A stretch of 64,000 bases of DNA from Sphaerotilus montanus (lineage in GTDB: Bacteria > Pseudomonadota > Gammaproteobacteria > Burkholderiales > Burkholderiaceae_C), in the NCBI RefSeq assembly GCF_013410775.1, contig NZ_JACCFH010000002.1, positions 1-64,000 on the forward strand, read 5' to 3'. A program made the position numbers and the translations under genes. The notes beneath the pieces were generated by a model. It was not told the DNA's origin and made no database searches. It saw nothing but the letters and a program-made list of their open reading frames with translations. Every line of letters begins with the position of its first letter. Position 1 is the first letter of the stretch. Shown here piece by piece: positions 13,368-42,362 of the stretch.

Positions 13368-15763
13368 AACCGCGCCTGTCTGCAAACTGCGTGGCGAGGA
13401 CATTGCTGCTGCTGGCCTTGGTCAGCGCCTGCCTCTCTCTCGGGGCGGCCGAGCGCCTGGCTCCACCCGCGGTGAACGCCGCTTCGGTGCCCGTCACAGC
13501 CCCTGTCGCCAGCACCGCGGCCTGCCTGCGCCCGAGCGACCAGGTCGCTGCCTGTCAGCCGGGGCAGCAACTGTCGCTGACACCCATCGCCTTGCCAAGC
13601 GCCCGCCTGGGCGTCGCCTACAAGCCGCGGCGCATGGTGGCCGGTGGTGTGGCGCCCTACCGGGTCGATGTCATCAATGGCAGCAAACCCGAGGGGCTGG
13701 ATTTCACCCCAGACGGCTCGCTGGCCGGCCTGCCCGTGGGTCCGGTGCGCGCCTACACCTTCACCGTGCATGTCACCGATGCCTCCGCGCCACCCCTCTC
13801 GGTGCGGCAGGCCTACGTCTTGCGCGTCGAGAAGCTCGCTCCACCTCGCAAGGCAGCGAGCGACGCGTCGGCCAACTCGGTCGTGGTGCCAGTTCCAGTA
13901 GCCCCCGTTGTGATTCCCCCCGGGCCGGCCCAGGTCACCAGCTACATGCTGCTGCAGGAAGACCTCGACGACATGTTCCCCAAGCCCAAAACCGCAACTG
14001 CTTCCGCTTCGGGGCCAGAGGCCGCCGCGAGTGCGCCACGCAAGCGCTTGCGCTTGAGGCCGGCAGCCTTTCCCACTGCATTTGCCGACAAGATGCAGGC
14101 CATGCTCGGCCCACTGATTCACGTGGACTTCCCTACGGCCGGCTTGTTGGCCCAGGCACTCGAAGCGCGCCGCTGCGCCTACTTCCGAAGCGTGGTGAAC
14201 CAGGCAGCGGTTGCGGCCGGGAGGGTGGCCACGCCGGCCGACCTGAAATGCCAAGCCGTTGCTCCGGCCGCCCAGGCCGGTGCTTCCAGCCAGCCACCCA
14301 GCTCGGGTGTGCCCGGTGTTTCACCCACGCTTTACGCTGACCTGCTGCCCGAGATCCTCAAGACCGACCTGATTGCACAGGCCCAGTGGCAGCACCCGCT
14401 CGACGGCAATGCCAAGCCACCGGCCTGGGTCGACAATGGTTGCGGCTGCGCCCCGCCGATCACCGATGACTGGAGCTACGGCATCTACCCGTTCTGGCAG
14501 GGGCAAGACGCCGAGCCGCAAAAGATCGACTTCAGCCTCTTCAGCCGCATCGGCTACCTCGGCGCACAACTCAGCGACAACGGCGGGTTGGTGAAGGCCA
14601 TTCCCTTCGATTCAGCCCATGACGGCTTCACTCGAACGGCACACCGGTTCGGCACCCGTGTGGACCTGATCGTTCACCGCAGCGAGTGGAGCAATCTGCT
14701 GAGCCAGCCTTACCAGACCGAACTCATCCAGCGCGCCGTGACTGACATCGTCAAGCTCGTCGACACCCGCATGACCGATGGATTCACCACCGCGAAACGC
14801 TACCTGCTGCCGGGCTGGGATGAGCCGGTGCATATGTTCGACGGCGTGACCCTCTTCTTCGACAACGCTCCCACCGATGCAGAAGGCAAGAAGAAATTCG
14901 AGGCCTTCTACACGAGCTTCGTGCACAGCCTCATCGCTGAAATGCAAAAGACCAAGCGGTCCTACGCGCTGAACATCGTTGCCCCGGCGACCGAGATCGG
15001 AAAGGATGGCGCCTACCACTACAGCCATCTCTGGGGCTACATCCAGCAAGCGCAGATGCTCACCGAAGCCAATGCACTCGCCGGGGCAGAAGAGAAAGAC
15101 TACAAGGGCACGACCGACATCACCGTGACGGTGCTCGCTTTGCTGGCAGAGCCCACGCGCCAGGCCGAGAAAGAACTGCGCGCTGGCGCCGATGCCACCG
15201 AGGTGATCCATGGCCACAGCCGCGTGGCCGTGCTGAAGTCCATCGCGCCGGTGTTGTTCCACGCGGCCGGCAACACCGGCCTGGCAGGCATGCGCATCAA
15301 CGAACAACAGTTCGACGACGACCTCGCCTATTTCAAATCGCAGTTCCGCGGCATGGCTCTGTGGCCCATGCCACTGCACGACACGGTGGTCGGGCCGGCG
15401 GTCTACTCGCTGCTGGCCAAGAATTTCTCGCCCAAGTTCCCGGGGGCAATCGACGGTATGTGCCAATGGGTCTGCCCCAACCGCAGTGCGATGCGGCTGC
15501 TTTTCATGGGGCTGCTCGTCATCGGCGTCGTGGCTTTCGGCCTGTACTACGGGGTGTGCTCGGTGCGGGGCCTCGGCCGGCCCTACATCGCCTTCCTGTG
15601 GCTGGGCGGCGTGGTCACCGTGGCCGTGGGTCTCTTGCTGTTGAGATGCGACCCGCAGTTGGCGCACGTGCGCCGCGGCAATGGCCCGCTGGTCGTGTTG
15701 CTGGTCGTCACGGTGGCGACGGGCATGTATTACAGCTTGCGGTCACGCACGGATCAGCCATGA
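13364..15763 (+). CDS. Predicted envelope-anchored protein with Ig-like and TIM-barrel-like regions
   Basis: This 799-residue protein is translationally coupled (ATGA) to the ATPase. An N-terminal signal sequence (LLLLALVSACLS) contains a possible lipobox VSAC. Residues about 75-165 look like a putative Ig-like domain (GVAYKPRRMVAGGVAPYRVD, then TPDGSLAGLPVGPVRAYTFTV). A Pro/Ala/Val linker follows. Residues about 370-680 resemble a GH18-type or related TIM barrel: a strand plus acidic pattern FDGVTLFFDNAP, and repeated beta/alpha blocks such as FSRIGYLGAQLSDNGG. I cannot assign a certain catalytic glutamate. The C-terminus has three hydrophobic segments (RLLFMGLLVIGVVAFGLYY, IAFLWLGGVVTVAVGLLLL, LVVLLVVTVATGMYY), so the C-terminus is probably membrane-embedded. 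Anchoring the particle, or opening the wall for its release, are guesses. Confidence 0.55.
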   Translation: MKPRLSANCVARTLLLLALVSACLSLGAAERLAPPAVNAASVPVTAPVASTAACLRPSDQVAACQPGQQLSLTPIALPSARLGVAYKPRRMVAGGVAPYRVDVINGSKPEGLDFTPDGSLAGLPVGPVRAYTFTVHVTDASAPPLSVRQAYVLRVEKLAPPRKAASDASANSVVVPVPVAPVVIPPGPAQVTSYMLLQEDLDDMFPKPKTATASASGPEAAASAPRKRLRLRPAAFPTAFADKMQAMLGPLIHVDFPTAGLLAQALEARRCAYFRSVVNQAAVAAGRVATPADLKCQAVAPAAQAGASSQPPSSGVPGVSPTLYADLLPEILKTDLIAQAQWQHPLDGNAKPPAWVDNGCGCAPPITDDWSYGIYPFWQGQDAEPQKIDFSLFSRIGYLGAQLSDNGGLVKAIPFDSAHDGFTRTAHRFGTRVDLIVHRSEWSNLLSQPYQTELIQRAVTDIVKLVDTRMTDGFTTAKRYLLPGWDEPVHMFDGVTLFFDNAPTDAEGKKKFEAFYTSFVHSLIAEMQKTKRSYALNIVAPATEIGKDGAYHYSHLWGYIQQAQMLTEANALAGAEEKDYKGTTDITVTVLALLAEPTRQAEKELRAGADATEVIHGHSRVAVLKSIAPVLFHAAGNTGLAGMRINEQQFDDDLAYFKSQFRGMALWPMPLHDTVVGPAVYSLLAKNFSPKFPGAIDGMCQWVCPNRSAMRLLFMGLLVIGVVAFGLYYGVCSVRGLGRPYIAFLWLGGVVTVAVGLLLLRCDPQLAHVRRGNGPLVVLLVVTVATGMYYSLRSRTDQP

Positions 15764-15800
15764 GCAGAACGTTGACGCCCCAGGTGGAAGGAAATGAACC

Positions 15801-17342
15801 ATGAAGACGCATGCCCACGACAACGCGCACGCGGCACAACGCCGAGCAGTGGCGCACCAGGCTGAGCATGGCGACGCTGCCGCTCGACTCGCGCAGGCCG
15901 GGCCTGCCGCCGTCGATCACCATGTGAATCACAGCCCACGCATGGTGGCGCAACGGCAGTTACTGGGCGCAGCTTTCGGGCCGGTGGCACAACGCGAGCC
16001 GCAGGGTCTGGAGGAAGAGCTGCCTGTGCAGGGCAAGGCGCTTGCGTTGCAGGCCAAGCAGGTCGGGTCAGGCTCGATCGACACCGTTCAGGCGCAAACA
16101 GAAGTGCCCGCCGAGGCGAACCTCACCGGCATGCCGAATCAATTGAAGTCGGGTGTCGAAGCGCTGTCGGGCATGGACATGTCGGATGTGCGGGTACACC
16201 GCAATTCGGACAAGCCGGCGCAGTTGAATGCGCTGGCCTATGCGCAAGGAAATGAGATTCACCTGGGGCCGGGGCAGGAGCACCACCTGCCGCATGAGGC
16301 CTGGCATGTGGTGCAGCAGCGGCAGGGCCGGGTGCAGGCCACGGTGCAGATGGCGGGGGTGGGGGTGAATGACGATGTGGGGTTGGAGGAGGAGGCGGAT
16401 GCGATGGGGGAGAAGGCTGAGAGTGGGTTGGTGCAGTTAATCGGGGATGGCAAAAGGCAAGACCTGGCTCCTAATTCGGGCGTGACTCCTAATTCATTAC
16501 AGCGTGCCACTAACCAACCGGCTCCGGTTGCGCAATTGACGCAGGCCGAGCTAACCAACGCGAAAAATATCTGGAACGGCTATAGCGCGAAACACGGTGT
16601 TGTCGATGGGCACGTTCAGGCCGATATCACGGCATTGCAAGATGCATATAACCACTATGCGTTGCCGGCCAACGGGGGACGCAACGACGCGGGCGCCGAT
16701 AATGCAAACTCGTTTTTGCGCAACAGCGTATCGGGCCTGCTTCATGATATCGCGGAAATCGATTCCCACGCGGGTGGCTATTACTACCAGCAGGAAGTCA
16801 AGGCGGGGATGAATGTCGCAAGAAGCATCGGAAGCATCGTGAACCAACAAGGCGCGCACGGCGGGATTAGCAATGCGACCGATCCGGATGTGAGTGTGGT
16901 ACAGGGGGGTGGCACGAAAAAAGCAGTCGAGGTTAAGCGAACGACGAAAGAAAATGGGCTGGATGGAATGCTGCATGAAGCAATTGAGCAACTATCCAAG
17001 CGGAAAGGATATTCAGGTGCTGAAGTCCATGTAGAGATTACAAGCCCTTTTCAGGCAGCAACCGTAAAAGGCAATTTGGGCGCAGTTAGGCAGACCGTAG
17101 AAAATCACATTGCGTGTGTGTGGCGTAGACTCGGAGAAGATTACTATTACAAGCAGGCGACGCCATTCCCAGGTGGACTGTTCGAGCCCTACATAATCCT
17201 GACTGTCAAGATTCAGTATGCAGGCACCGCCGCGTTGATCTATGACCGGGACTTCCAGGTGCATTTAGAACAGGAAGCCGGCCGACGCGGGGCCATGAGG
17301 CATTCGGTTCAGGCATTCTTCCCACTCAACCCACGCGTATAG
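15801..17342 (+). CDS. eCIS-core (DUF4157) effector with a PD-(D/E)XK-like C-terminal region
   Basis: This protein has 513 residues and a good ribosome site (GGAAGGA, 8 bases before the ATG). Residues 1-100 are His/Ala/Gln-rich and probably disordered. Residues about 105-205 are the DUF4157/eCIS-core domain: GMPNQLKSGVEALSGMDMSD, RVHRNSDKPAQLNALAYAQG, and the metalloprotease-like HEAWH at 165-169. This domain marks cargo of contractile injection systems. The C-terminal 300 residues are unrelated and clearly lower in GC. They contain DPDVSVV (361-367) and AVEVKRT (375-381), which fit the D...ExK core of the PD-(D/E)XK nuclease fold, with Asp363, Glu377 and Lys379 as candidate catalytic residues. 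I infer a secreted nuclease-type toxin. No standard immunity gene is intact next to it. Confidence 0.8.
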   Translation: MKTHAHDNAHAAQRRAVAHQAEHGDAAARLAQAGPAAVDHHVNHSPRMVAQRQLLGAAFGPVAQREPQGLEEELPVQGKALALQAKQVGSGSIDTVQAQTEVPAEANLTGMPNQLKSGVEALSGMDMSDVRVHRNSDKPAQLNALAYAQGNEIHLGPGQEHHLPHEAWHVVQQRQGRVQATVQMAGVGVNDDVGLEEEADAMGEKAESGLVQLIGDGKRQDLAPNSGVTPNSLQRATNQPAPVAQLTQAELTNAKNIWNGYSAKHGVVDGHVQADITALQDAYNHYALPANGGRNDAGADNANSFLRNSVSGLLHDIAEIDSHAGGYYYQQEVKAGMNVARSIGSIVNQQGAHGGISNATDPDVSVVQGGGTKKAVEVKRTTKENGLDGMLHEAIEQLSKRKGYSGAEVHVEITSPFQAATVKGNLGAVRQTVENHIACVWRRLGEDYYYKQATPFPGGLFEPYIILTVKIQYAGTAALIYDRDFQVHLEQEAGRRGAMRHSVQAFFPLNPRV

Positions 17343-19473: not shown

Positions 19474-20514
19474 TCAGTAATGAACCTTGAAGGTCGGCGA
19501 GTCCTGGGACCGCGACTGCCGACGGTCGTAGAGGCGGGTGGTGGAGATGTTGGCGTGGCCGAGCCACTCCTGTACCTTGGCGATGTCGGCCTGGTGATCG
19601 AGGGCGTTGGTGGCGGCCGTGGCCCTGAGAGCGTGGGCGCCGACCTCGAAGCCGAGCGCGGCGGTGTGGCCCCGCACGATCTTGTAGACCGCATCGGGCG
19701 TGAGGCCCGGGGCCTGATCGCGCCGGCCGCGCAGCGCCCGGAACAGCGCGCCCGACCCATCCGCCCCGTGTCCGGCCCCCTCCAGGTACTCGGCGATCAG
19801 CATGCCGGCGGCCGGGTGCAGCGGCACGTAACGGGTCTTGCCGCCTTTGCCCTGCACACGCAGGTGCATCACGCCGCGGCGCATCTGCTGGGCATCCTTC
19901 ACCGACAGACGGCATAGTTCCTCGCGACGCAGCCCGTGGTAGAGCAGCGTCGCGAGGAGGGCTTTGTCTCGTTGGTCCTTGAGGGCGGTACTGCTTGCAC
20001 CGTCGGCAGTGCTGGCCACACGGCCCGGCGCATCGAGCAACTGGCGCGCCTGGTGGTCGCCAAGCGCCGGGGTCTTGCCTTCGTAGGTCTCGATCGGCGG
20101 CCGGCGCACGCCTTTCACAGGGTTGTGGGTCACGGCGTTGCGGTCGCACAGGTACTCGAACAGCGAGGACAGGGCGGCGAGCCGGTGGCGCACCGTCGCC
20201 CCGCTCAAGGTCCGGCCCACCAGGTCGTCGCGCCAGGCGATCACATGCGCGCGGGTGACCACGCGGAACTCCTCGACCCGCTGCAGCCCGACAAAGCTTT
20301 GAAAGTCCTGCAGCGCGGTTTCATAGGCACGGCGCGTGGCGGGACTGGCCAGGTTGGCGAACCACTCCACTTCGGGTGGCACCTCGGCCAGGCGCTGGAA
20401 GGCGGCCTGGGTCAGCAGCGCGCCGCCGGCGCGACGGCCATCACCCGGCCGCACCGCCAGTTCGCTGCTCGGTCCACCGCGCTGCGCGCCCTCTGACCCC
20501 TGTTCGTCCGCCAT
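19474..20514 (-). CDS. Tyrosine recombinase (XerC/D-like integrase)
   Basis: The protein has 346 residues. The N-terminal SAM-like core-binding domain spans about 40-145 (NLASPATRRAYETALQDFQS). The catalytic domain shows the family tetrad: Arg in YHGLRREEL (near 193), Lys in GKGGKTRYV, His-x-x-Arg in HALRATAATN (near 293), the second His in WLGHANIST, and the tyrosine nucleophile in RLYDRR (near 326). It could resolve replicon multimers or act as the integrase of an island. No att or dif-like site was recognised beside it. The gene is transcribed away from the defence-like genes on its right. Confidence 0.9.
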   Translation of the reverse strand: MADEQGSEGAQRGGPSSELAVRPGDGRRAGGALLTQAAFQRLAEVPPEVEWFANLASPATRRAYETALQDFQSFVGLQRVEEFRVVTRAHVIAWRDDLVGRTLSGATVRHRLAALSSLFEYLCDRNAVTHNPVKGVRRPPIETYEGKTPALGDHQARQLLDAPGRVASTADGASSTALKDQRDKALLATLLYHGLRREELCRLSVKDAQQMRRGVMHLRVQGKGGKTRYVPLHPAAGMLIAEYLEGAGHGADGSGALFRALRGRRDQAPGLTPDAVYKIVRGHTAALGFEVGAHALRATAATNALDHQADIAKVQEWLGHANISTTRLYDRRQSRSQDSPTFKVHY

Positions 20515-20807: not shown

Positions 20808-22031
20808 TCAGGGCGCATCTCGAAACAGTTCATCCATGGCCTGAACTAAGGCAATGATCGCGCCGGGGTCTGGACACTTCATGTGCGCCAGGTCGTTGCG
20901 GACCCTCGTGACCTTGAAGCAGATGTCGGCTGCAGCCCGTTGGTGGGGATCGAAAACCACCAGTTTGTTCTGCTGATCCAGCTGCATGTGAACGATGTCG
21001 TTGCACTCGAGGTCAGGGATCGCGGTCTCGATGACCCGGTCGCCTCGGGACGTCTTGCGCCTCACCCCGCCAGTTGGCGCAAGATAGACCTCCAGTGCTG
21101 GCGTCAGGATCGTCACGATGCGGTGTCGTCTTTCTTCCAGCCAAGGCATCAGAGCGTGAAGCGCAGCGCGCCAGTACCTCGATGCGATGGAGCGAACTGC
21201 GGCTTCCTGCATCGGCCCTTCGTGGCTGGCCAGATGCCACTCGTGCAGCACATGTGCCTGCACGTCACCATTGATCTCGGCGACGCTGCCGGTGTCGAAC
21301 CGAGACTCGCGCCAGATGGCGTCAGTGGTCGACATCCGATGGGCGACAAGTGATAAGGATTGAGGTAGATCCAACAGGTCGTGTTCGTCCAGGCGCATGA
21401 GCTCTTCCGCGAAACCGGCATCGAAGCCCGCGAACTCGGCAACAAGGTGCTGGGTTAGCGCAGTGCTTCCAGGTCCCCGGCGACCGATCATCCGCATGCC
21501 CACGTAGGCCTTCATCTCCTCTGGGCTGAGTGCGCCACTGAATTGCACTTGCGACAACCCGGCCGTCTTTGGCCAAGATGCGCCCATATCGGTTCGCACG
21601 ACCACCAAAGTCACGGCGCCGCGTGCCGAGGCGCCTTGCGAGGCCTCGGCGAAGTCCATCAGGTACTGCCTGCACTTGTCCACAGCACGTGGCGTTTTGG
21701 GCGCCAGGACGATCGTATGACGCTTGCCACTGGCATGGCGTGCCAGCTGGCTGGGACTCATGGTCGCCATCCCCATGTGGTGGCCCACATCAGATTCGAT
21801 GTGCGATCCATCCTCAACGTTCAAGCGAACTGGCTGATCGGTGTCGGCGTGCGACGCCCGCAACGCGTGCTCGAACGCGTACCCGAAGCCCGTCACGGCC
21901 CGCCCTTGCGCACCGACGACGAGTGCACGGCTGTGGGCAATGGCGTGGCTGACCGAGTCGATGAAGCCCTGCGGGCCGGGGAGCATCCAGTAGATGGATG
22001 CGGCGATGGGAGCTTGAAATCGATCTTCCAT
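20808..22031 (-). CDS. Unrecognised 407-aa partner of the IS-split giant gene
   Basis: The start codon lies 6 bases after the stop of the giant gene, so the two are almost certainly one operon. I do not recognise the protein. Its N-terminus (SIYWMLPGPQGFIDSVSHAI, then ALVVGAQGRAV) looks like the opening of an ATPase-like fold, but I see no canonical Walker A. A strand HTIVLAPKTP and VTLVVVRTDMG support a P-loop-like alternating beta/alpha core. The C-terminal third (TAIPDLECNDIVHMQLDQQN, then VRNDLAHMKCPDPG) resembles a small C-terminal helical domain. No membrane segment or signal peptide is seen. Function is unknown; by position it is a dedicated partner of the giant protein. Confidence 0.7.
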   Translation of the reverse strand: MEDRFQAPIAASIYWMLPGPQGFIDSVSHAIAHSRALVVGAQGRAVTGFGYAFEHALRASHADTDQPVRLNVEDGSHIESDVGHHMGMATMSPSQLARHASGKRHTIVLAPKTPRAVDKCRQYLMDFAEASQGASARGAVTLVVVRTDMGASWPKTAGLSQVQFSGALSPEEMKAYVGMRMIGRRGPGSTALTQHLVAEFAGFDAGFAEELMRLDEHDLLDLPQSLSLVAHRMSTTDAIWRESRFDTGSVAEINGDVQAHVLHEWHLASHEGPMQEAAVRSIASRYWRAALHALMPWLEERRHRIVTILTPALEVYLAPTGGVRRKTSRGDRVIETAIPDLECNDIVHMQLDQQNKLVVFDPHQRAAADICFKVTRVRNDLAHMKCPDPGAIIALVQAMDELFRDAP

Positions 22032-22037
22032 GTCACA

Positions 22038-23511
22038 TCACCCGATCAGCCGTTTGTACAGAGTGGGAACGTGCCAGGTGCCATCGGACCGCACCTGAAG
22101 CAGCCCCATCCACTGGAAGAACTCGAACTCGGCCTTGCCGACGATCGAGGTCCTGATCGCCTCTTCCACGCCATCTTCGGAACGACGCTCGCCGTCGATC
22201 AGAAGGAGCAGCTGCTCGATCTCTCGCAGATCGGCCGAGGCAAAGGCCTGCGGCAAACCTACGTTGGCGTAGAACGCCGCGAGGCTCGGCGCCAAATGAC
22301 GCTGAGCCTCTTCCGCAGACTTCAGTGCCAATTCGACCGACAAGCCGCCCGTGCACAGGCGGTCCAGTTCACCGCCGAACCCGCAGGTGGCATCGAGCAA
22401 TGCCTGCCGGGCCGGGCCGCTGTCGCGAAGAGACACATTCTGCTTCTGCTCGAACCTGTAGTAGACCGCGTCGTCGCCCCAGATCGGCACCGGCTCGATC
22501 CGCCATCCCTTGGGCGGCGAGCTCGTCGACTGTGGCCCATAGAGGCGCTGCGCGAGCTCCCAAGCCAGGTCCGGGCTGGCGATCAAGGCGAGACGAATCG
22601 TCGCCAACCGCTGGCGCTGGGTGGGGTCCGGCGACGCAGCTTTGTTCGACAAAGAGCCCGCCAGGACCGCGTAGCCATCGACTTCGGCTGAACGCCATGA
22701 TCGGGGCGGCAATGCCACCAAGCGACGTGTCGGGGCGTTGTCCGTCAACCGGCGCGCGCGTTGCAGGTGTGTCCGGGCGTTGTCCGGGCTGGAAAAGAGC
22801 TTGACCTCGTACACCGCGTCCTGGCCCAACTCCCACTCCTTCTGGAGCTTGTCGATGGTGTAAAGGCCCGAGAGCTGATTCCCTACCCAAACGATGAGAT
22901 CGGTGTCGGCCCCCCGCAGCAGACTACGCACCCAGGCACTCGGCATCGGGAAGACCTTCTCATCGCGGCCCTGCCGGATGATGAGACGACTTTCTCCTGG
23001 GATGCGGTTCTCCGTCGGCTTCTCGCTTGCCAGTTCCTCGATCTTGCGCAGAACCCGGTCACGGGTCCCGAGCATCGTGGCGATGTGGGGTGTGCGCAGA
23101 CGGAATCGATTGCCGTTGCGCTCCAGCACCGTGAGCTTTTCCATTTCCTCGAGCAGCGCCTCGTAGGCCGCGCCGTTGGTTTGTTGAAAGTGCTCTGGGG
23201 TGTACGCTTGGCAATGGTCGCGGATCTCGGTCGTGGTCAAGCCCAACGAGACGCCATGTCCAGAGTTCTCGTAATAGACGTCGGCCAGGATGAGGGCAAT
23301 CGCCTTGTAGCGCTTGTCGAGGTCGAGGTTCAGTTCGAACTTCTTCTGGATCTCACGCAAGAACTCATCGTCTCGCTCGACCGCATCCAAATCGACGGCT
23401 TCGACCACCGTCGGGGGTGCGGCCGTGCCCCGCTTGTTGTACAGCCGGGTCACCAGGTTCTTGCAGTACAGCTGAATGAAGGCGGGGTAGAAGTTGCACA
23501 GCGCCATGATG
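22038..23511 (-). pseudogene. Giant gene, 3' fragment (winged-helix-like C-terminal region)
   Basis: The visible open frame starts at an internal ATG at 23507, right at the edge of an IS3-family copy. Removing that copy joins it in frame to the ATPase fragment (reading ...LPLRI-MALCNFYPAFIQ...). So this is the C-terminal 490 residues of a much larger protein. Residues corresponding to PAFIQLYCKNLVTRLYN continue the ATPase lid, and LGLTTTEIRDHCQAYTPEHF plus LLEEMEKLTVLERNGNRFRL look like winged-helix modules. The remaining 300 residues are unrecognised: a domain with IIVRQGRDEKVF-like and DTDLIVWVGNQLSG segments that could be a nuclease or sensor, with no motif I can assign. The stop is 6 bases before the 407-aa gene. 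Confidence 0.75.
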
Positions 23512-23519
23512 TGTCCTGG

Positions 23520-24727
<1,208 letters not shown>

Positions 24728-24761
24728 CTATCGGTGTGTGCGAAATCATTAGACCAGGACA

Positions 24762-25444
24762 ATGCGCAGCGGCAGGTTCTCCGACCCCTTGGGGAAGTAG
24801 AAGCCCAAGGCGCCAAGCGGTCGAGTGATGAGTTCGATCCCGTTGAGGATGTCGACGTTCGTCGAGAACGGTTGAAGCGCGATCGATTCAGCTTTTCCGA
24901 GCACGGAGTTGCCATCCGTCGTCATGCGGGTCAGGTTGTGCAGGCCAGCGATGACGTACCGCATTTGGCAATGCGTGCGGACCTGGTCGCACAGCGCTTG
25001 AAGCCCCGTGATGAACAATGCCTCGCCGTTCAAATCCTCCCGCATGACCTCGTCGGCCTCGTCGATGAGCAAGTAGCACGCGTTGGTGGCCGCGCGCCCA
25101 CTCACGACTTCGGAGCTGATCCAGTCTCGAATGGCCTCGGGGCTGTTCAGGTCCCCCTTGGCGCCGTCAATGAACTTGGCCTTGACCAATCCGTTGTAGA
25201 TGGTCCTCCAAGCAAACAGGCGGTGGTTCTCGCCGAAAGAGGCCGTGTCCAGGCGCGTTTCCAGCGGAATGTAGATGGCCATCTCGCCCTGCCCGTGGGC
25301 ACCGCTCATCTCCAATTGCTGCCGGGAGTCGTTCTGGATCTGGTCCAGCAAGGATGACTTGCCCAACCGCCGGCCACCATAGAGCACAGCGGCGCTCTTG
25401 ACGCCGCGCAGCAGCTTCAGTTCAGCCTTGCGCCCGAAGAACAT
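24762..25444 (-). pseudogene. Giant gene, middle fragment (STAND-like P-loop ATPase)
   Basis: About 226 codons are trapped between two oppositely oriented IS3 copies. They encode a clear NTPase core: FFGRKAELKLLRGV at the start, a Walker A VLYGGRRLGKSSLL, and a Walker B CYLLIDEADEV. These features, with GRxxEL before the Walker A, are typical of STAND/NACHT-like and related regulatory ATPases. Reading starts at an apparent ATG at 25444, but this ATG is the 3-bp target duplication; excision of copy 2 makes it continuous with the big upstream frame (...RPVPPEM-FFGRKAEL...). The other end reads LPLRI and continues into the 3' fragment. On its own this piece is unlikely to be functional. Confidence 0.8.
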
Positions 25445-25478
25445 TGTCCTGGTCTAATGATTTCGCACACACCGATAG

Positions 25479-26686
<1,208 letters not shown>

Positions 26687-26694
26687 CCAGGACA

Positions 26695-29600
26695 CATCTC
26701 GGGAGGCACAGGCCGACCGCCGTAGTCGTCGTACGGGTTGTTGTTGAAGGTCAGTAAGCCGACTTCCATCAGCTTGCTCACCCTCTCACCGGGGTGAACC
26801 GCCAGGTAAGCCACCAGATCGTCGTCGATTAGGATAACAGGGTGGTCTCGGCTGATGGCCGACCGCTTGGCCAACGACAAGCTGGTGCGGGCGAGAACGA
26901 ACGTCGGCGTGGACTGCGCGCACTCTGTGATGACCTGACCGAACGCTTCTGTCGACGGTTGGTGCTTCAACACGAAGCCTTGGAGGTGGTTTGCCGCCGA
27001 CCCCAGGCTGGGCGGAATGAACATGCCATTGCCGGAGCGATCGCTTCCCAAGAAGGTTTTCGTCGGCAAGAAGAAGGCCAGGCGCCCCGCCTGTGCAGGA
27101 CCGTGCATCGGCGTCGGCGCTTCCGCCGTCCCCAATCCCCGGAAGAATGCGGTCAGAGGAGCGTCCAGTTCGGTGACCTGACGAGCGGCACACAGCGAGA
27201 TCCAGTTGACAATGAAGGCAGCCGCATCCTCGCGCTGTTCGGTGCTGAGGCGAGACACCCATTCCATGTCCATCGGACTGGAGGGCTGTCGAAGAACATC
27301 TGCAAGGTGTTCGAATGGGCGGTGACCTGCACCGGAAGCCTTGAGGGACGCCTGGAACTCCTCGTAGTCGTGCGCCGTATTGACTGCCTCGAGCCGCAGG
27401 AGCGGAAGCCTGTCCTCCCGGAGCAGCGCGAACGCGTTGTGAGCCACACGAATGCCGGACGGGCTACCGTCCTGCAGCATCTGACGAATGCGTTGGATCT
27501 TCTCCAGCAGACGGGCGTGGGTCTGAGGGTCCGGATTCTCCTTCGCCGCCTTCTCGCTGAAGCTGTTGATGTCGTCCTCGAGGCGCTCACGGCTCTGCTG
27601 GATGCGACCCGCGAGCGGCTCAAGAACGTGGTGCCGCAGCAATGCACGGGTGTGCGGGTAGTCCGTGTACGGTGTCGGCACAGCTGAGATGCTGCCAATC
27701 TCCTGAGCGACGTTAGCACGCGTCAGTGCTTCGATCGCCTTGAGCATGCGGCTGGCTTCCACCTCGGCAAGGGCGCCGAGCGACATAGCGTTCATCGTCC
27801 GTTGCCGAGCATCGGTCAGATCATCGGCGAACTGACTTCGCTGCTTGCGCTGGGCCGCTTCGTTCGCGGTGTGCACGGACCCCGCGACAGCCCGCGGCAA
27901 CCGGAGCTCGATCGCGCGCGCAGGAAGGAGTCGGCCGTTGTCGCGATGCCCTTGTGCCGCCCGCTCAAGGAGTTCGGTCAATGCTTTGGAACCGGGGGTG
28001 GCCCGGCGTTCAGCAAGCTCGTCCTCGATCGCATCCACCTCAGGGAAGATCGCCCATGGGTCGATCAAGGGAGTGGATGCGTCATCGTCGGCATCGAGAC
28101 GAACCGCCAAAGAAGGTCGGAATTCGGAGTCCAGCGGCAGCTGAAGCAGGAGCAGTTGCTCCTCGTCTGACAGCGCCGCTGGAAGCGCCTTGTCGTCCAT
28201 CATGCGCAATGCGCCAGCCAAGACATCTCTCGCGAGGTCGCGGTGGATCTGCTCCACCGTGTGGGAGAACGACAGGTCCTGCACATAGTCCAGGGCCGCT
28301 TGAAGGTCCTTGTAAAGGTGAACGAGGAACTCCACCAGGTTCTTCGGCAGGTCCGAGTTCGATTCCCGCTGGCTGCGATCGACTAGGTTGAAGAAGTCCT
28401 GGATGAACTTGACCGTGATCTCCAGATTCGTCGCCAGGTAGTCGCGCGCCGGCCCTTCAAAGGCACGGCGACGTCCAGTGCGATTGCGCAGGTCACTCAA
28501 GGTGCCGGCCAGCTTTTCAACGTACTTGCGCACCTCTGGGAGCAGCTTGCGGGCCTGTTCATCCGCACCTCTTGCGATGAACCCCAAGCACTTGCCCAGC
28601 ACCAGTCCATGTCGATCGTCGAACATCGCCCGGTGCATCTCGACGTAGTCGAATGCAGTCCAGTGGGTGTAGATCGATGCATCGCTGGGCCAATTTGCAG
28701 CCCGTTCGCGTTGTCGCATGACCTCGGCATTCAGTGACTCGGTGACGCCAACGCGCACGGCAGACATCGTCTCCCGACTCAGCATCAGGCTCGTGCTGTT
28801 GAGCGAGGCCAAGCGCTCGACCAAGTTCAGCAGAGGCTTGTGCTCGCTGAGTCGGGGCCTGACCTGAACCAGGATCGCCCATCTCGCTGTACCTTCATGC
28901 CCTTCGAAGAGCATCGCGATCAGGCCGGCTCCGATAATCCCGATCGTGCTCGCCAATGCGGAGCACGGCGCGCTCTGTGAAGCCAGAGTCGACTCTGCGG
29001 TGCCGCCTGCATCCAAATAGGCCTGCAAAGCGGTCGACAGTCGAGGCTCCACAGCGGCACGTGACGACAAGCCAGACAGCACCGTGAGCATGGACGACCA
29101 TGCGATCGTGTGAATCGCCAGCTCTTCACCAGGGATCAGCGCCTGCAAGCCCTGAATACTTGCTTGTGACAGGGCCCAGTGTCGTGCCTGGACGGTCCTG
29201 GCCAGGGTCGTCAACAAGTCTTGCGGGTTGGGACGCTCTGCCGTGGTGTCGACGTCGACGTCCTCGACTGGTGCTTCGTCCGACTCGGCGTACGAGTCTG
29301 GCTCGAGAGGGTGGATGGCGTCGGCGGATTGGGGCGAACTCGAGTCTTCGACCGGCATCTCGCCGATCGTGCTGGCGTTGCCTGCAGCATCTACATGCGA
29401 CGGCCCGGTGATGGGCGGTTCATCTGCCTGAACCTCTGCCTCGACTGTGGCCGTTTCTGTAGCGTCTGTTGATGAGGGCGCGGGACATTCAACGACAGCC
29501 TTGCCAGAAGCACCCGTGCCTGGATCAGTTCCTTCTCGGTCATCCGTGTGCTCGACGACCGCTTGCAGATCAACGCTGACCAAGGGGACCGGCTGCGCTG

Positions 29601-32600
29601 AAACTTGAACGGAAACGGGAACGGGCACGAGCACGCTGATGTTCGCGGTCGAGGCCTCTGGCGCCTGTGGCGCCGCGACGGGATCGGCAGACGGCACCGC
29701 CTCCAATCCGGTACCCTCGGACGAGTCGATCAGCGGACGTGATTGACAAAGGATCGGGCATGCACAGAGCCGATCGTGGAGGCGCTTCTGCAGCTCATCA
29801 AGTTCGGCGATGGCCGAAATCATCAGCGCGGATTTGCGCCGCGTGCGATCCATTCCTGACAATCCCTGTAGTTCAGGAACACGTGACGATTCCACATCTT
29901 CAATGCGGGTGAGTGCTTGAAGTGCCGCGTCGACAGCGACCTCGACGTTGCCGATGGTCGAATCGAGTGACGCTAACGAAGCGTCGTCGACGGAAGTGAG
30001 GGCTTCCGCAGGCGTCACCACCGCGAATGCCCCAGAGCGTTCCGGCAAGCACTCTGGGGTAATCCGTTCCAGGGCGGTGCGGGCACGCACGACGATCTGG
30101 GACAGGCGATCGATCAGCTGCAAACGGAACAGCTCCAGTTGCTGTGCGGCGTGAATGGCTTGGAGCTTTTCCGCGTGGAGCGCTGCAAGCCGATCGAGTT
30201 CTTTCTCGATCGATACCCGGACGCCCTCAAAGTCGGCTTGACCAGGCATCAGCAACCCCGCCAAGCGAAGCAGCTTGGCGAGTTCACCCTGCTCGCCTGC
30301 CGCGTCCCCAGCTTCTGCGGGTGTTATCACCGCAGCGGAAGTGCGATTCGCGGGACTCCCCTTCAGGCTGGAAATGGCTTGAACAACTGCGTGCCTCGGC
30401 ATGGGTGGCTCCGATTCGGTCGGCGGGGTGTGTACGTGGTCACGCGAATGTGTTGGGGCGACGACGAGGGCATGGATTGGCGCGGGTGAAAAAACTTCGG
30501 ATCCCGCAGGCCCCGATCGGGCAGGCGATTCGCCTGCGCCCAGGGCGCCGAGTTCGGTGCGTGGTCCCTCAGACATCACCTCAATGGGACTTTCGGGGGC
30601 AGGTAACGCGCGGCGAACCATATCCGGCATCTTCTTGATGCCCTTTTGGCGAAGTTCGAGCGCTTGGATGACCGCTTCATTGCAGTCCGTAAAGAACTGC
30701 AAGGCTGCCAATGACATTGGGCCCAGCGCGTTGGTGTTCATGGCCACGAGCAGGGTTTCAGACTGAACCCTGAAGGGGTAGTGGGCGAGCATCACCAAAG
30801 TCCAAGCGATGTCTTCGTCGCTGCCGTTGTCAACCATCCAACGCGCCATCGGCTCGCAGTCTTTGCTGGTGACTGCTTCGATCTCCGGGAAAGTCTTCTC
30901 CTCTTTCTCGAGCTCTGCAACGTACTGCAGGAAGAACTCAGTCGACCGATAGAAGACGCGTGAGTTGGCTGGAAAGAGTCCAGCGGTATCGACGGAGTAC
31001 AACGACTGCGGAATTCGCAAGCGATTCATCAACCAGTCCGGGAACCCGGCGGTGGACGGCGCGGTGCCCTTCGTCTTCCGAAAACCAAGGTCACCCTGCG
31101 TTTGCCAGAACCGCTTGATGGCGCGGCTGTCCGGCCAAGCACTTTCTGGAACGACCGTTTTTCGGGTGACGAACCATGGAAGATCCACGATGACGCGGAC
31201 GTTCCCGCAGAGCATGTCCTCGTAAAGCCTTCTGCAGACCGGCCCAGAGCGCCTCGAATACACTTTTGACACTGCGCGCGATGAATACCATGCGCGCGCC
31301 AGACGCGCGTCGCTGGGCTTCAATTCGTCCCCGTCGTCCTGCCGTGCAGCATCGAAGACAACGGTCGCAGTCTGGGACACGTCTCCTTGAAAGGTTTGCT
31401 TGTCCTGCATGGCCTCACCGCTGCCGTCCGAAGTCGCGGCCGCTTCGCCCAAAACAGTCTTTTCGACGTCACCCAGGTAGGTGTCGACCAACCGCGTCTT
31501 CGTCTCACCATCCTCGTCGGGCGTTGGATCGGTGTCGTCGGGTTCCGGTGCCTCGGGCGCATGGTCCGGGTACCGGATGATGTAGTCCTGCACTTTGGCC
31601 GCGAAGAACAAGGGCGCCGGCGACGCAGTCCATTCGTCGTAGTGGGCATAGCCGAGGCGCAGTCCCATCACCAGCCTGGCGATGTCGTCCGACACTGCAT
31701 CGTTGGGACATGCGAGCACAGTGACCTCAAGCGACGCTGGCAGTGCCGCGTCGTCCTTCGAAGGTGACACTGTTTCCCAGTCGAAGCGCTTGCCTTCCTT
31801 GTCGTCTGTGCCGTCCGTGTCGAGGGGTTTCATACGGCGCCGCGTCCGATAACAAGACATGCCGCGTAGGATCTGAACGGTCTTTCGGTATCCCATGACC
31901 ATCAGGTAGTGGTGAGGGCCCACCCCTGCCTTCGCCGCACTCCCTTCGGCTTCTGATGCGTTGATCTCAACGATCGACTTCAGCGTCGTGGTATAGGTTT
32001 CCTCGACCACATCGCCCGTCGGCGCCAGCGCAGGCTCGTTTTTCCAGGCCTCGTAGAGCATGGTCGAGCGCTTGCGAAGCGACATCGTGGCGTCGCGGTT
32101 GGAGCGCAGGCGAACGAAGGTCATCTTCGGGCAGGCCGACGCCAAGTTGACGCCATCGAGCATCACGCGAGGGGCATTCCCTGCGACGAGATTGCTGTCG
32201 TTGATGCCAGACCACAGTCCACCGACGGTGGACCAGTCGATCAAGACGACGGCGCGGGGATCGGATTGAGCGAGCTCGCCCAGCACCGATTTCACCTGGC
32301 CGGCAAAGTTCTCTTTGACCCACACCTCGTCGCTGGTGATCTGGCGCTGTGATCCGAGCCAGCGGAGGCCTTCATTGAGGGGAACCCAGGCTTTGCGCAC
32401 TGTCTTGTTCGCAGTTCGATAGGCGAACTGGACTTCGGTCGTGCCCGTCGCAATCACCAGTCTGGTGAAGAGCAGAAAACTCACCGACGATTCGCTGGTG
32501 AAGTTCTTGGCCCGCGACCGCACGACCTGGATCCCGTAGATGGCATGGGGCAAGGGCGCCGGCAGGCGGGATGCGGCAAAGGCTTGCGTGCCCAGAACGA

Positions 32601-32741
32601 CGCCCGAATGGGCCATGAACACATCCAAGAGCGCACTCTGAAGGCGATGAACGAAGTTCTGTTCGTCTGGCTTCTGGCTCTTCCAGTCGATCTCGATCGG
32701 CAAGATGTGGTGGACATTGGCATCAGCCATCGAGCACATGG
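26695..32741 (-). pseudogene. Giant gene, 5' fragment (PIWI-RE/RNase H-like N-terminus, long helical middle)
   Basis: A frame of about 2,015 native codons runs from the edge of IS copy 3 to copy 2; the last 18 codons of the actual open frame are IS-derived. Residues 50-300 resemble the C-terminal RNase H-like part of prokaryotic PIWI-RE proteins: WVPLNEGLRWLG, AVVLIDWSTVGGLWSGINDS, ACPKMTFVRLRS and a late GMSCYRTRRR. This assignment is by eye and moderate. Residues 310-520 include acidic linkers; 520-730 have another mixed domain (VRVIVDLPWFVTRKTVV). Pro/Ser/Val-rich linkers lie near 730-860 and 1,000-1,180, and a long helical array spans 1,200-1,850. FLPTKTFLGSD and HPVILIDDDLVAYL precede the ATPase. 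The true N-terminus is missing: the first ATG lies at the IS edge. Confidence 0.7.
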
Positions 32742-32749
32742 TGTCCTGG

Positions 32750-33957
<1,208 letters not shown>

Positions 33958-34093
33958 CTATCGGTGTGTGCGAAATCATTAGACCAGGACAGCAACCCCT
34001 GCCGGTCCTTCCCCGGTCTGCCAACCCCGCATGGTCTGCCACCCTCTCTTGGCAGGGAGGAGGCAGGTTCAAACCTGTTTGGAAGGAGCCGTC

Positions 34094-36501: not shown

Positions 36502-37878
36502 CTATTCATTCAGTTCTTGCCCAGAACTCCTATCTGTACTGGGATAGCGGTTCCATGACTCACCATGTACAGCTGTAGCATACAGCCTCACGATCACCGA
36601 GCCGAGCAGTCCGTGCAACACGTCACCTTGAGCTGCGCGACGAACGATCACGGCACTGAGGGTACCTTTAGATGACAGTTCCTTGATCGCTTGATCGACC
36701 CAGACCTTACGCTCGGAAACTGGCAGCGCCATAAGCTCCTGACGCACTTCGGCAATCTTGGCATTCATCCAATCAGCTTGAACCCGCGCATCGACTTCTT
36801 GGCGCGGCATAACTGGATTTTTTATGAGAGCAGGCTTGACTGCTGCGGCAATTGTCACCGGATTTACTGAAACGGATGGCTCAACAACGGCTGCAGCATC
36901 AGTACGCAGTAGCGTACGCAGATATGAATAAGCATCGTCAACGGGTAACAGGCGGTTGTTGGCGATGCGCCGTTCCAACACGTCGAGCTTGACTCGAACG
37001 GCAGCATCATCAAACTCGGTCAGCAACCCGTCCAACTTGATCTCTCGAATGCCAAGAGATTCGGCTCGCAGCACCAAGTTCGCATCTACCGGACTGGCGG
37101 TGACAGTCCCCCCCCTAAGTGGGGCGCGTTTGCGACGGACGGCGAACTGTACCTCGGTAACTGTACGTCCTTGGCGATGTTCGATCAGTTCGATCTCAAT
37201 GTCAGTTTCCCGATTAATTTCGTCAAGTGCTGGTTTTACGCGCTCGGACTTGAACTTGCGCCATTCGCGCCGCTCCGAGCCTCCAGGTGCTTGGTTCAAT
37301 GCATCCGTCCACCAGTCAATTGGCTTACGACTTGTCACACCTGATGGATTGTCCCGGTAGCGGGCGCATATCTCGTAGAGTGCCATGGCCGTGTACGTTC
37401 CTAACCGCGCTAACACATCCAAATCGAGACTGGCCCAGCGCAGCGGCTCACGCAACACCCCCATGATGGACGGGGGATAGGACCACGCAACCCAGTTCTC
37501 GCCGTTGCGTACTTCGATCGCTACCTCAGACAGCATCGAAAACCCCCTCCACTTGACACTGTCTCCTGGCGCGGTCGACTCCCAGTCAACTTCTAGGCCA
37601 CGCATTTCCCGTAAGTAACGTTTGGCTGCCGTCCGATCCTCGCCGGATGAGCCAGTCGTTCTCAGCAGTGCAGGCAGGGGAGCTTCAAACATGTAGTCAG
37701 CCTTGGGCATAGAGTCCATAGCCACTAGCCGAGATTGAGCAACCTGAAGCATTGCGTTGTAGAGGCGTCGCCCCGTTAAGGTTACCCGCCGCGATCGAGG
37801 AATCATGACGATCATCTCGTGCGGCTTGCGAAGTTCCGGGCCATCGGAAGCAGCGTCCCGGCATTCAAGGGTGTTCAT
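36502..37878 (-). CDS. Replication initiator (RepB/Rep_3-like)
   Basis: The protein has 458 residues when started at the ATG at 37878; an in-frame ATG 90 bases upstream is less likely because that stretch enters the control region. The N-terminal half shows the initiator double winged-helix pattern: VTLTGRRLYNAMLQVAQSRL, AKRYLREMRGLEVDWESTA, FSMLSEVAIEVRNG, and a second unit at LARLGTYTAMALYEICARYR followed by REWRKFKSERVKPALDEIN and TDIEIELIEHRQGR. The C-terminal 170 residues are an Ala/Val linker and a helical tail. It is divergently placed to the iteron array, which it should bind to open the origin and repress itself. Its lower GC matches the parAB genes, so the module moved as a unit. 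Confidence 0.85.
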   Translation of the reverse strand: MNTLECRDAASDGPELRKPHEMIVMIPRSRRVTLTGRRLYNAMLQVAQSRLVAMDSMPKADYMFEAPLPALLRTTGSSGEDRTAAKRYLREMRGLEVDWESTAPGDSVKWRGFSMLSEVAIEVRNGENWVAWSYPPSIMGVLREPLRWASLDLDVLARLGTYTAMALYEICARYRDNPSGVTSRKPIDWWTDALNQAPGGSERREWRKFKSERVKPALDEINRETDIEIELIEHRQGRTVTEVQFAVRRKRAPLRGGTVTASPVDANLVLRAESLGIREIKLDGLLTEFDDAAVRVKLDVLERRIANNRLLPVDDAYSYLRTLLRTDAAAVVEPSVSVNPVTIAAAVKPALIKNPVMPRQEVDARVQADWMNAKIAEVRQELMALPVSERKVWVDQAIKELSSKGTLSAVIVRRAAQGDVLHGLLGSVIVRLYATAVHGESWNRYPSTDRSSGQELNE

Positions 37879-37973
37879 GGGCAACGATGTGAAGTGTGTC
37901 GCAATGATATGTCCAACGCATCTTGGACACAAATCCGGAAAAGAGCAGATGGCGACAGCAGAACGCACCTATC

Positions 37974-38244
37974 CCGGGTAAAACCTGGACACTTTGGAGG
38001 ATGAGACCCGTCCCAAGCACACACTCTCTTCCGGGTAAGGCCTGGACATTGGTGCATGCACAGCACGAAAAAATCCGGGTAAAACCTGGACACTTGCACA
38101 AATTAGCCACTGACCGATCGATTCAAAGTACAAAAAATCAACGATTTTTCATATCAAGGAATGCCGGGTAGAACGCGGACAAGTCCGGGTAGAAGCAGTA
38201 CGCAACCGGGAAAAGTCTGGACGAATCCGGGTAGAAGTTGGACA
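37974..38244. repeat. Iteron array (origin of replication)
   Basis: Seven direct repeats of an 18-base unit close to CCGGGTAAAACCTGGACA start at 37974, 38031, 38075, 38164, 38185, 38206 and 38227. The first three are the best matches. The last four are more diverged but are phased at exactly 21 bases, about two helical turns. The array lies between the divergent rep and parA genes, the usual place for Rep binding and for repression of rep. Confidence 0.9.
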
Positions 38245-38345
38245 AATTTCTGAAAAAATCTTTGTAAGCTGTTGATTTTAAAAGGTTTTTTTAACTTCCA
38301 AGTCAGCTTAATCTCTTTAAGAAATTTGATTCTTTTAAACCCCCC
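38245..38345. other. A+T-rich stretch beside the iterons (likely unwinding region)
   Basis: About 100 bases directly after the last iteron are strongly A+T-rich, with several A and T runs, in contrast to the GC-rich window. This is the expected arrangement for a DNA-unwinding element opened by the initiator. No gene is present. Confidence 0.7.
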
Positions 38346-38373
38346 GATAGAGACTTTTTCAAGTCAAAACAAC

Positions 38374-38434
38374 AGCCCAAGACTCCGTGTCGCTTGGGCT
38401 AGACACAAAAGGACAGCCAGCATGTGCTGGTCCT
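38374..38434. promoter_or_regulatory. Two inverted repeats upstream of parA
   Basis: AGCCCAAG/CTTGGGCT (38374-38381 and 38393-38400) form an 8-base stem. CCAGCA-TG-TGCTGG (38417-38430) forms a second one, with outer AAGGA and TCCTT. They lie 60-120 bases before the parA start, where ParA-type proteins with an N-terminal HTH bind to repress their own operon. One could instead be a terminator. Confidence 0.45.
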
Positions 38435-38491
38435 TGAATTTTTGAAAACTCCGCGGACAATCGCAGACTCTGCAACAAGAACGCTGACATC

Positions 38492-39709
38492 ATGAACATC
38501 AAACATGTTCCGTCTGGAGAGAGCCTACTCATCCACCGAGCTCCGATCCGCAGACAGTCGCTAGCTGACATCGAAGCCCAAGCAGCACGTATCGCAGCCA
38601 TGATGGAACAGATCCGTGCGGCAATGCTGCCACCGGCATCTGTCAAGCACGCGCCTGTGGTGAGCGCTGCACAGCTCGCGGAACTTTGTGGAGTTGATAA
38701 AAGCAAGATCGCGTATCGGCTTACGCGTGGGGATCTGCCACAAGGCACTATGGTCGGGAACCGACGCGAATGGGCTATGTCGGATGCTCGAACAGTGGTC
38801 CGGGACTTTCGGCAAGAGCACATGCGCCCATCACAAGCTGCAGGAACGACCATTACCGTAGCCAACTTCAAGGGGGGCGTGGCTAAAACCACTTCCGCTG
38901 TCACATTGGCCCAGGGTCTTGCAATGCGCGGTCACCGTGTGCTTGTGGTGGATCTTGATCCACAAGGTTCAGCTACGACTTTGTTTGGGGTTCTCCCGGG
39001 CGCGGAGGTAGAACCAGAGCACACTGCGATGCTGCTGTTTTCTGGCGAACAAGAGGATTTGAGCTATGCGATCCGGCCGAGCTACTGGCCAGGTGTGGAT
39101 CTTGTTTGTGCAGCTCCGCTACTCTTCGGTGCCGAGTTTGCTTTGCCAGCTCGGCAGACCAGAGATCCTGGATTCGAGTTCTGGCGCTGTCTCGACCGTG
39201 GGCTCGATCAAGCTCGAACAGACTATGACGTCATCTTGATCGACACCCCTCCGGCGTTGTCGTATGTGACGATCAACGCACTAATGGCTGCTGACGGGGT
39301 CATCATGCCTCTACCGCCGTCAGCGCTGGACTTCGCTTCTTCTGCACAGTTCTGGGATCTATTCAGTGATCTATGCAATCAACTGATTCGCAGTCGAGGG
39401 CAAGACAAGACTTTCGAGTTCATCGATGTTCTGCTGTCACGAGTCGAATCGTCAGATGCGGCCAGTTCGGTTGTTCGGCAATGGGTGCTTGAGGCCTATA
39501 CAGACAAGGTGTTGCCGATCGAGATTCCAAAGACGTCGGTTGCGGCCACAGCTTCGGCCGAATTCGGTACTGTCTATGACCTCCCTCGTGGAGCCGTAAA
39601 TTCGAAGACATTTGGTCGAGCTCGTGATGCATTCGATCGTATGTGTGAACTGATCGAACAGCAGATCGTGGCGGTGTGGGCAGCTCAGATTGAACAGATG
39701 GAGGTGTGA
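38492..39709 (+). CDS. parA: ParA partition ATPase (type Ia)
   Basis: The protein has 405 residues. The N-terminal 110 residues contain a helix-turn-helix (VVSAAQLAELCGVDKSKIAY), as in ParA proteins that repress their own promoter. The ATPase core has the deviant Walker A FKGGVAKTTSAV, Walker A' VLVVDLDPQGS, and Walker B DVILIDTPPALS. It forms ATP-dependent polymers or gradients on the nucleoid to move plasmid copies. parB follows after one base (stop 39709, ATG 39711). The GC content is like that of rep. Confidence 0.93.
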   Translation: MNIKHVPSGESLLIHRAPIRRQSLADIEAQAARIAAMMEQIRAAMLPPASVKHAPVVSAAQLAELCGVDKSKIAYRLTRGDLPQGTMVGNRREWAMSDARTVVRDFRQEHMRPSQAAGTTITVANFKGGVAKTTSAVTLAQGLAMRGHRVLVVDLDPQGSATTLFGVLPGAEVEPEHTAMLLFSGEQEDLSYAIRPSYWPGVDLVCAAPLLFGAEFALPARQTRDPGFEFWRCLDRGLDQARTDYDVILIDTPPALSYVTINALMAADGVIMPLPPSALDFASSAQFWDLFSDLCNQLIRSRGQDKTFEFIDVLLSRVESSDAASSVVRQWVLEAYTDKVLPIEIPKTSVAATASAEFGTVYDLPRGAVNSKTFGRARDAFDRMCELIEQQIVAVWAAQIEQMEV

Positions 39710-39710
39710 G

Positions 39711-40832: not shown

Positions 40833-40840
40833 TTTCAAGA

Positions 40841-40859: not shown

Positions 40860-40909
40860 CCTCTCCACTGCCAACGCTGAAATGCTCGGCATACGAAATT
40901 TGGATTCAA

Positions 40910-42358: not shown

Positions 42359-42362
42359 TGCA

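Follow-up and report, generated by a model that had tools for sequence, protein, structure and literature searches.

A truncated PIWI-RE/STAND giant gene in Sphaerotilus montanus and its intact relatives point to a four-gene, defence-type system

The pPIWI-RE system described by Burroughs, Iyer and Aravind in 2013 is a set of three adjoining genes; the available part of that paper (PMC3702460) names a rare zincin fusion and contains no PIWI-RE/STAND fusion. A related protein, PsPIWI-RE of Pseudomonas stutzeri, loses cleavage when either of two aspartates, D525 or D610, is mutated, according to the part of PMC10991935 that was available. Here we describe a relative of these systems in the first 64 kb (64,000 nucleotides; the window) of a 230,316-bp contig, NZ_JACCFH010000002.1, from the 5.07-Mb genome of Sphaerotilus montanus. 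In the window lies a broken copy of a defence-type system that is based on PIWI-RE and comprises four genes, the third of which encodes a giant protein. Judging by domain matches, the giant combines in a single chain a pPIWI_RE module and a module of about 1,900 residues that contains one P-loop ATPase of STAND-like type. Such a system is apparently undescribed, as neither a giant PIWI-RE/STAND fusion nor a comparable giant-HEPN pair was found in the open-licence literature; a description elsewhere is possible. An earlier sequence-only reading of the window had known of no system with this architecture, which stands for the fusion in that literature and was too broad for the PIWI-RE triad, already described in PMC3702460 (available part).

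The intact gene order is restriction endonuclease (REase), helicase, giant and partner. In Azospirillum oryzae (L024), Bradyrhizobium elkanii (L025) and Microvirga (L028), a divergent WYL-domain gene is followed by REase-type and helicase-type genes, a giant of 3,256, 3,100 and 3,394 amino acids (aa), respectively, and a partner of 525, 549 and 538 aa; the WYL-domain cluster is present in nine loci. The L024 system lies on a plasmid of strain KACC 14407, its four genes being HUE56_RS06290 to HUE56_RS06275. In L024, the Pfam families PF18154 (pPIWI_RE_Y) and PF18156 (pPIWI_RE_REase) match gene 1, PF18155 (pPIWI_RE_Z) matches gene 2, and PF13111 (X), PF18157 (MID), PF13032 (RNase H) and AAA_22 match the giant. 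The label "DinG-type" for gene 2 is taken from PMC3702460, as far as that source was available. Two further intact loci, L126 and L127, come from scans of 399 genomes of the order to which S. montanus belongs. Their giant frames measure 3,135 and 3,092 aa from stop to stop, with helicase-type and REase-type frames upstream and a partner frame of 399 or 397 aa downstream. In L126, PF18154 and PF18156 (first gene) and PF13111 and PF13032 (giant) exceed the Pfam cut-offs, PF18155 and ATPase_2 fall below them, and MID is without a match. Plasmid triads with a short third gene were found in Tolypothrix (L026, 1,064 aa) and Cupriavidus (L027, 918 aa).

Aligned with these intact giants, three minus-strand frames of the window (pieces 1 to 3, Table 1) turn out to be parts of a single gene that two identical insertion sequences (IS) have interrupted. 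Piece 1 aligns with the L126 giant in two stretches (piece residues 1-719 and 1092-2014), which together span giant residues 554-2435; piece 2 corresponds to residues 2436-2654 (51% identity) and piece 3 to residues 2655-3130 (39%). The corresponding stretches of the L127 giant are 591-2394 (from piece 1 residue 7), 2395-2613 and 2614-3090. The identity of the pieces to the two giants is 29-51%. Since the piece ends abut in both giants, the two junctions drawn by the sequence-only reading are confirmed without joining any sequence, and its proposal that two IS copies divide a single giant gene is borne out. Its other observations can be matched as follows. The 3-bp duplications CAT and ATG are seen as matching flanks of the two copies, the PIWI-RE-like RNase H region is PF13032 in piece 1, and the P-loop ATPase of STAND/AAA type has both the Walker A and the D-E type Walker B motif of a STAND NTPase in piece 2. 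The 407-aa partner gene follows the giant's stop, and the intact locus that the reading had suggested looking for in related genomes exists in L126 and L127. Its length of 2,731 codons is correct as the sum of the three pieces, which we kept separate, and is not that of the whole gene, given the same-order giants of 3,092-3,135 aa and the longer series of 3,038-3,411 aa presented below. The "first available ATG" that it took as the start is an internal codon, because a third IS copy truncates the gene. It had missed this copy, and also the two genes of the relatives (helicase and REase) that are absent from the window.

The domain matches agree with this assignment. Against a profile built from 22 PIWI-less relatives, pieces 1, 2 and 3 occupy positions 100-1161, 1162-1372 and 1374-1840; for piece 3 the match has an E value of 2e-55 and ends at residue 488 of 489. 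The AAA_14 match in piece 2 (E 1.6e-5) is below the Pfam cut-off. An N-[FY]-Y-P stretch 3' of the ATPase domain is, on sequence alone, a candidate for the STAND GxP motif. Of the MID domain, piece 1 retains just the final third, at its start, which means that the frame begins inside that domain. The X domain, PF13111, has no Pfam match in piece 1 and is present in the L024 and L126 giants. In blastp comparisons, five relatives have at least 567 residues ahead of the point that matches the start of piece 1, and measured against L126 and L127 some 550-585 N-terminal residues are missing from the window, where copy 3 cuts the gene. The own genome was the sole match in a search of 149 relatives with piece 1 and in a search of 369 genomes of the class with the ATPase (E 1e-15). 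PF13032 was matched in 3 of 398 genomes of the phylum and in five of the 399 of the order, four of them over the cut-off (the own genome and frames of 3,135, 3,092 and 1,011 aa). The ATPase was likewise found in five of the 399; besides the own genome, L126 and L127, there were two matches in frames of 1,642 and 1,178 aa.

The three IS copies, which we take from their transposase to be members of the IS3 family, are identical and 1,251 bp each; their flanks were read with the element start set at the terminal TGTCC. Because the copies are identical, the damage to the giant gene is probably recent. No remnant of the N-terminal part of the L126/L127 giants, of the helicase or of the REase was found in the window or in the next 12 kb of the contig. 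PF18154, of the REase gene, has no match in the own genome; the helicase search covered the window and those 12 kb only. PF13111 has no match in the own genome either, a weak negative, as the control genomes gave no match. The window has no convincing WYL gene, and a plasmid sequence search gave no DNA match to piece 1. With the REase and helicase genes gone from the window and present in L024 and L126, the window locus is a broken descendant of the system and no working member of it. That is, it is a truncated, dead copy, and the interest lies in its intact relatives.

The own genome contains at least 13 full-length copies of this IS among the 20 matches listed (seven over positions 1-1251 and six over 2-1251), a number that may be a lower bound, as 40 of 215 candidates were scored. 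Three of the 13 lie within the 10.5-kb locus at 23511-33991. Under a uniform model, such clustering has a probability of about 3e-6 if the locus is named beforehand and of 1.5e-3 over a scan of the genome, in a post hoc statistic that ignores target bias. It gives only a hint of selection against the system, or of target bias.

The ATPase module is met both with and without PIWI-RE. A scan of genome contigs with the ATPase alignment kept 80 loci of 164 relatives. PIWI-RE lies in the same frame as the ATPase at 14 of these, with 3,038-3,411 aa from stop to stop, and all 14 fused loci have matches to the helicase and partner profiles. The 14 include L036 (same record as L028), L029 (same species as L024, identical ATPase) and L040, a Gemmataceae bin that is nested among Bradyrhizobium and may be mis-binned. 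The remaining 66 loci are PIWI-less; 45 of them have a partner match, an example of such a pair being L077 of Zavarzinella formosa, and none has a helicase or PIWI-RE in the fetched flanks. Seven of the PIWI-less frames run off the contig end, and the other 59 have a median length of 1,932 aa (906-2,439). Homologues with the parts apart, which the sequence-only reading had named as evidence against itself, thus do occur, as the ATPase without PIWI-RE (66/80) and as PIWI-RE without the giant's module (L026, L027); the fused, intact forms are nevertheless real. Three PIWI-less loci (L033, L041 and L043) stand inside the clade of fused loci in the ATPase tree. The giants of L041 and L043 (2,084 and 2,141 aa) are without PIWI-RE, and no helicase or REase match is present in their fetched flanks; a secondary loss of the sensor part is probable in these two.

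Rows of the ATPase tree carry the labels of 17 phyla, many of them as metagenome bins. Among 22 relatives searched at E 0.1, AAA_22 was found in 21 and ATPase_2 in 14. For 22 giants, PADLOC at E 0.01 returned three families, each in a single giant, and NCBIfam returned no match. A PADLOC scan (E 1e-10) of neighbours of PIWI-less loci took in 94 of 96 chosen frames from loci L046-L083; it was run without a background set, and several helicase models match the same few proteins. DrmD was matched in 3/94, and DpdF, ZorD, PsyrT, type III methyltransferase and reverse transcriptases in 2/94 each. Three PIWI-less Paracoccaceae loci (L048, L064 and L068) and the Tolypothrix plasmid of L026 have in common a neighbour of about 2,070 aa, and the L026 annotation gives a DEAD/DEAH helicase of such a size. 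Query A1 gave four weak loci in viral contigs. In solved structures (PDB), A2 retrieved one chain (E 0.0069), by name a designed protein of no evident bearing, and A4 retrieved none.

The partner protein was aligned in 42 rows, consisting of the window's protein and 41 of the 62 partner frames in loci L024-L108. Trp287, Arg378, Ala382 and His383 (window numbering) are invariant in all 42, and the pattern R-[NRDHST]-x-x-[AS]-H is found in 61 of the 62 frames, the exception being L032 with R-M-S-M-A-H. The window's partner matches the partner profile at E 6e-76 (the profile contains its own row) and is 34-35% identical to the partners of L126 and L127. HEPN_Swt1 (PF18731) matches 13 of the 42, with a best E value of 3.3e-4. 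From the R-x4-H motif and these Swt1-like matches, we infer that the partner is a HEPN-type RNase. Some partners have an additional tail: AAA_33 matches it in 9/42, and a P-loop tail was recognised in 19 of the 62 frames, every one of them from a member of the fused clade. The partners of the window, L126 and L127 have no tail. L043, a member of the fused clade, is counted among the 43 tail-less partners; its tail was probably missed by the pattern, since the L043 frame aligns with the profile's tail region. A search of solved structures with the partner (A3) gave one chain (E 0.099), unrelated by name.

The window's PIWI-RE module does not look like an active nuclease. Twenty pPIWI rows, PsPIWI-RE not among them, were aligned. 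With its position assigned from the strand motif, the first catalytic Asp is missing from all of them (Ser in 16, Thr in 2, Gly in 1 and, in the window, Gln). The second Asp is present in 17 rows, the family Arg in all 20 and the Glu in 15; the window keeps all three. Given that cleavage by PsPIWI-RE requires its aspartates, the missing first Asp makes cleavage by the module unlikely and binding likely.

The trees leave room for one or for two origins of the fusion. In the C-terminal and partner trees, the window stands beside the PIWI-less L085, a locus with a WYL gene (support 80 and 88), and in a larger tree L126 and L127 stand beside L085 (support 98). In the ATPase tree, the window has a very long branch and L080 as its nearest neighbour. 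Both fused types fall into one group in the PIWI tree, where the support is modest (88/61). A single origin shared with the alphaproteobacterial fusions is not rejected by the approximately unbiased (AU) test (p 0.675, 0.649, 0.536 and 0.448); when the set was reduced to 39 of its 77 rows, p was 0.072. From the C-terminal tree, 31 loci were dropped by the motif pattern; The trees were built without L036, and most of them also without L029.

We suggest that the window locus is the broken copy of a four-gene system in which a PIWI-RE sensor switches an ATPase that, in turn, licenses the HEPN-type partner as an RNase effector. The architecture is read from sequence, and we give the mechanism an even chance. 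The PIWI-RE module, lacking the first catalytic Asp, would bind either RNA-DNA hybrids or a guided target on the DNA of invading plasmids or phages, with the helicase assisting its binding. Binding would be passed on inside one polypeptide to the ATPase, which would use ATP to switch or assemble. The switch would free the HEPN-type partner as a cell-arresting RNase, and the REase may cut the invader. Where the ATPase-partner pair occurs without PIWI-RE, it presumably receives another input. A broader and more tentative proposal, which we place somewhat short of even, is that the STAND-type giant of about 1,900 aa and its HEPN RNase partner form a widespread, unnamed two-gene immune core with interchangeable sensors. 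In some proteobacteria this core would have been fused into the PIWI-RE triad, giving a four-gene machine with proteins of more than 3,000 residues that unites a guided sensor with an ATPase switch and an effector RNase.

Other explanations must be weighed. The proteins could form an RNA-dependent restriction system, as proposed in 2013 in the available part of PMC3702460, with the REase and helicase acting and the STAND module and partner merely gating or assembling the complex. REase and PIWI-RE domains above the cut-off in the intact L024 and L126, and helicase-profile matches in all 14 fused genome loci, are in agreement with this proposal. It accounts less readily for the 66 loci of 80 in which the STAND module occurs without the triad, 45 of them with the partner, so that the two look like a working pair alone, and for the invariance of R-x4-H in 42 of 42 partners, as for an active centre; we regard it as rather unlikely. 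HEPN RNase cleavage leaves 5'-hydroxyl ends, and the partner might, alternatively, be a guide maker whose fragments load PIWI-RE, the kinase-like P-loop tail of alphaproteobacterial partners adding a 5' phosphate. The confinement of the tail to the fused clade would fit such a role, as would the ability of PsPIWI-RE to bind and use both 5'-OH and 5'-P RNA guides (PMC10991935, available part). We nevertheless find the idea improbable, given the partner's presence beside PIWI-less giants in 45 of 66 loci and the tail-less partners of the window, L126 and L127. Finally, an unrelated ATPase gene may have been fused to PIWI-RE by chance, without functional coupling. Long branches, low identity, the inability of trees and tests to separate one fusion from two, and the PIWI-less L041 and L043 within the fused clade could all be read in this way. 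Fusion, gene order and partner are, however, kept in the 14 genome loci and recur in two loci of the same order whose identity to the window pieces is 29-51%, and this makes chance assembly the least credible explanation, with very little probability.

Several observations also weigh against the sensor-switch-effector mechanism that we prefer. A partner match is missing from 21 of the 66 PIWI-less loci, some of whose contigs end early. The HEPN_Swt1 matches are weak, and there is none for the partners of the window, L126 or L127. Gene 2 in L024 and L126 has the Z domain and no helicase domain over the cut-off. PIWI-RE triads without a giant exist (L026, L027), so the STAND part could be regulatory. 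PsPIWI-RE, the one PIWI-RE protein studied, is a working nuclease guided by RNA and has a link to ciprofloxacin survival, and an anti-phage role is not shown in the available part of PMC10991935. The cellular role of PIWI-RE proteins is still poorly known, and where such a protein is naturally fused to an ATPase switch and a predicted RNase is encoded next to it, the arrangement hints at the recipient of the signal. The intact loci named above are the place to test PIWI-RE signalling, and the PIWI-less form would be a separate defence candidate.

Table 1. Features of the broken locus, in window coordinates.
Feature	Position	Strand	Remarks
Partner gene, 407 aa	20808-22031	-	6 bp past the giant's stop; predicted HEPN-type; without the P-loop tail of alphaproteobacterial partners
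R-N-D-L-A-H (R-x4-H) motif	20883-20900	-	partner residues 378-383; R-x4-H in 42/42 aligned partners
Piece 3 of giant gene, 489 codons (22041-23507) plus stop	22038-23507	-	C-terminal region
IS copy 1	23511-24761	-	3-bp flanks match, ATG/ATG
Piece 2 of giant gene, 228 codons	24761-25444	-	P-loop ATPase: GGRRLGKS at residue 23, LLIDEAD at residue 125
IS copy 2	25445-26695	+	opposite to copy 1; 3-bp flanks match, CAT/CAT
Piece 1 of giant gene, 2,014 codons	26698-32739	-	carries the MID_pPIWI_RE end, the pPIWI_RE RNase H domain, a linker and over half of the STAND-giant module; N-terminally truncated
Portion homologous to stand-alone STAND giants	26698-30165	-	piece 1 residues 859-2014; profile positions 100-1161, E 4e-35
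RNaseH_pPIWI_RE domain, complete	31576-32541	-	PF13032, E 8.9e-34; piece 1 residues 67-388
MID domain remnant	32593-32739	-	model positions 94-137 of 141; piece 1 residues 2-49; below Pfam cut-off, location as expected
IS copy 3	32741-33991	-	flanks differ, TGG/GCA; abuts the start of piece 1 and ends the surviving gene

The surroundings of the locus contain genes of other kinds. Genes of an extracellular contractile injection system (eCIS), with Baseplate_J, CIS tape-measure and eCIS core domains, extend over 1323-17342 (+). A frame resembling a tyrosine recombinase (by eye) lies just past the partner gene at 19474-20514 (-), and 505 bp there are 94% identical to a Sphaerotilus sulfidivorans plasmid. 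The plasmid backbone at 36502-48392 includes a replication initiator 75% identical to that of a Sphaerotilus sulfidivorans plasmid, a ParA-like frame at 38492 (by eye) and a MobA/MobL relaxase at 47019; a transposase stretch at about 41.3-42.2 kb is 81% identical to an Acidovorax plasmid. Plasmid matches to the window are sparse. A second defence-like cassette, at 49046-61931, encodes a protein of 1,773 aa that has DEAD and UvrD helicase parts, along with a DUF1156 protein and a DUF499 protein that carries additional C-terminal domains.

How does the intact system compare with those already known? In short prokaryotic Argonaute systems such as SPARTA, an inactive sensor of Argonaute type reportedly drives a separate effector. 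The present system differs in that the sensor is PIWI-RE and not a prokaryotic Argonaute, a STAND-like ATPase stands between sensor and effector, and the effector would be of HEPN type instead of TIR or Sir2. In the Avs and other STAND anti-phage ATPases, a P-loop ATPase is the switch in a large defence protein; here, in contrast, there is a two-gene layout with a HEPN-type partner. A Swt1-like HEPN domain fused to a DUF499 AAA+ ATPase in restriction-modification operons, as reported in the available part of PMC3710099, shares the tie between a Swt1-family HEPN domain and an ATPase in conflict systems. There, however, a single protein carries both domains and its ATPase belongs to a different family; here the two are encoded by separate genes. 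PsPIWI-RE is alike in its PIWI-RE family and in the adjoining genes for a DinG helicase and a nuclease; from what was available of PMC10991935, it differs in being active, with D525 and D610 required, whereas the 20 pPIWI rows aligned here have Ser, Thr, Gln or Gly at the position assigned to the first Asp. The closest likeness in gene order, REase, helicase and pPIWI_RE, and in Pfam domains is with the three-gene pPIWI-RE system of Burroughs, Iyer and Aravind (PMC3702460, available part). The system described here departs from that triad in a third gene of 3,000-3,400 aa, not 918 or 1,064 aa as in L027 and L026, in a STAND-like module within the same chain, and in the presence of a fourth gene.

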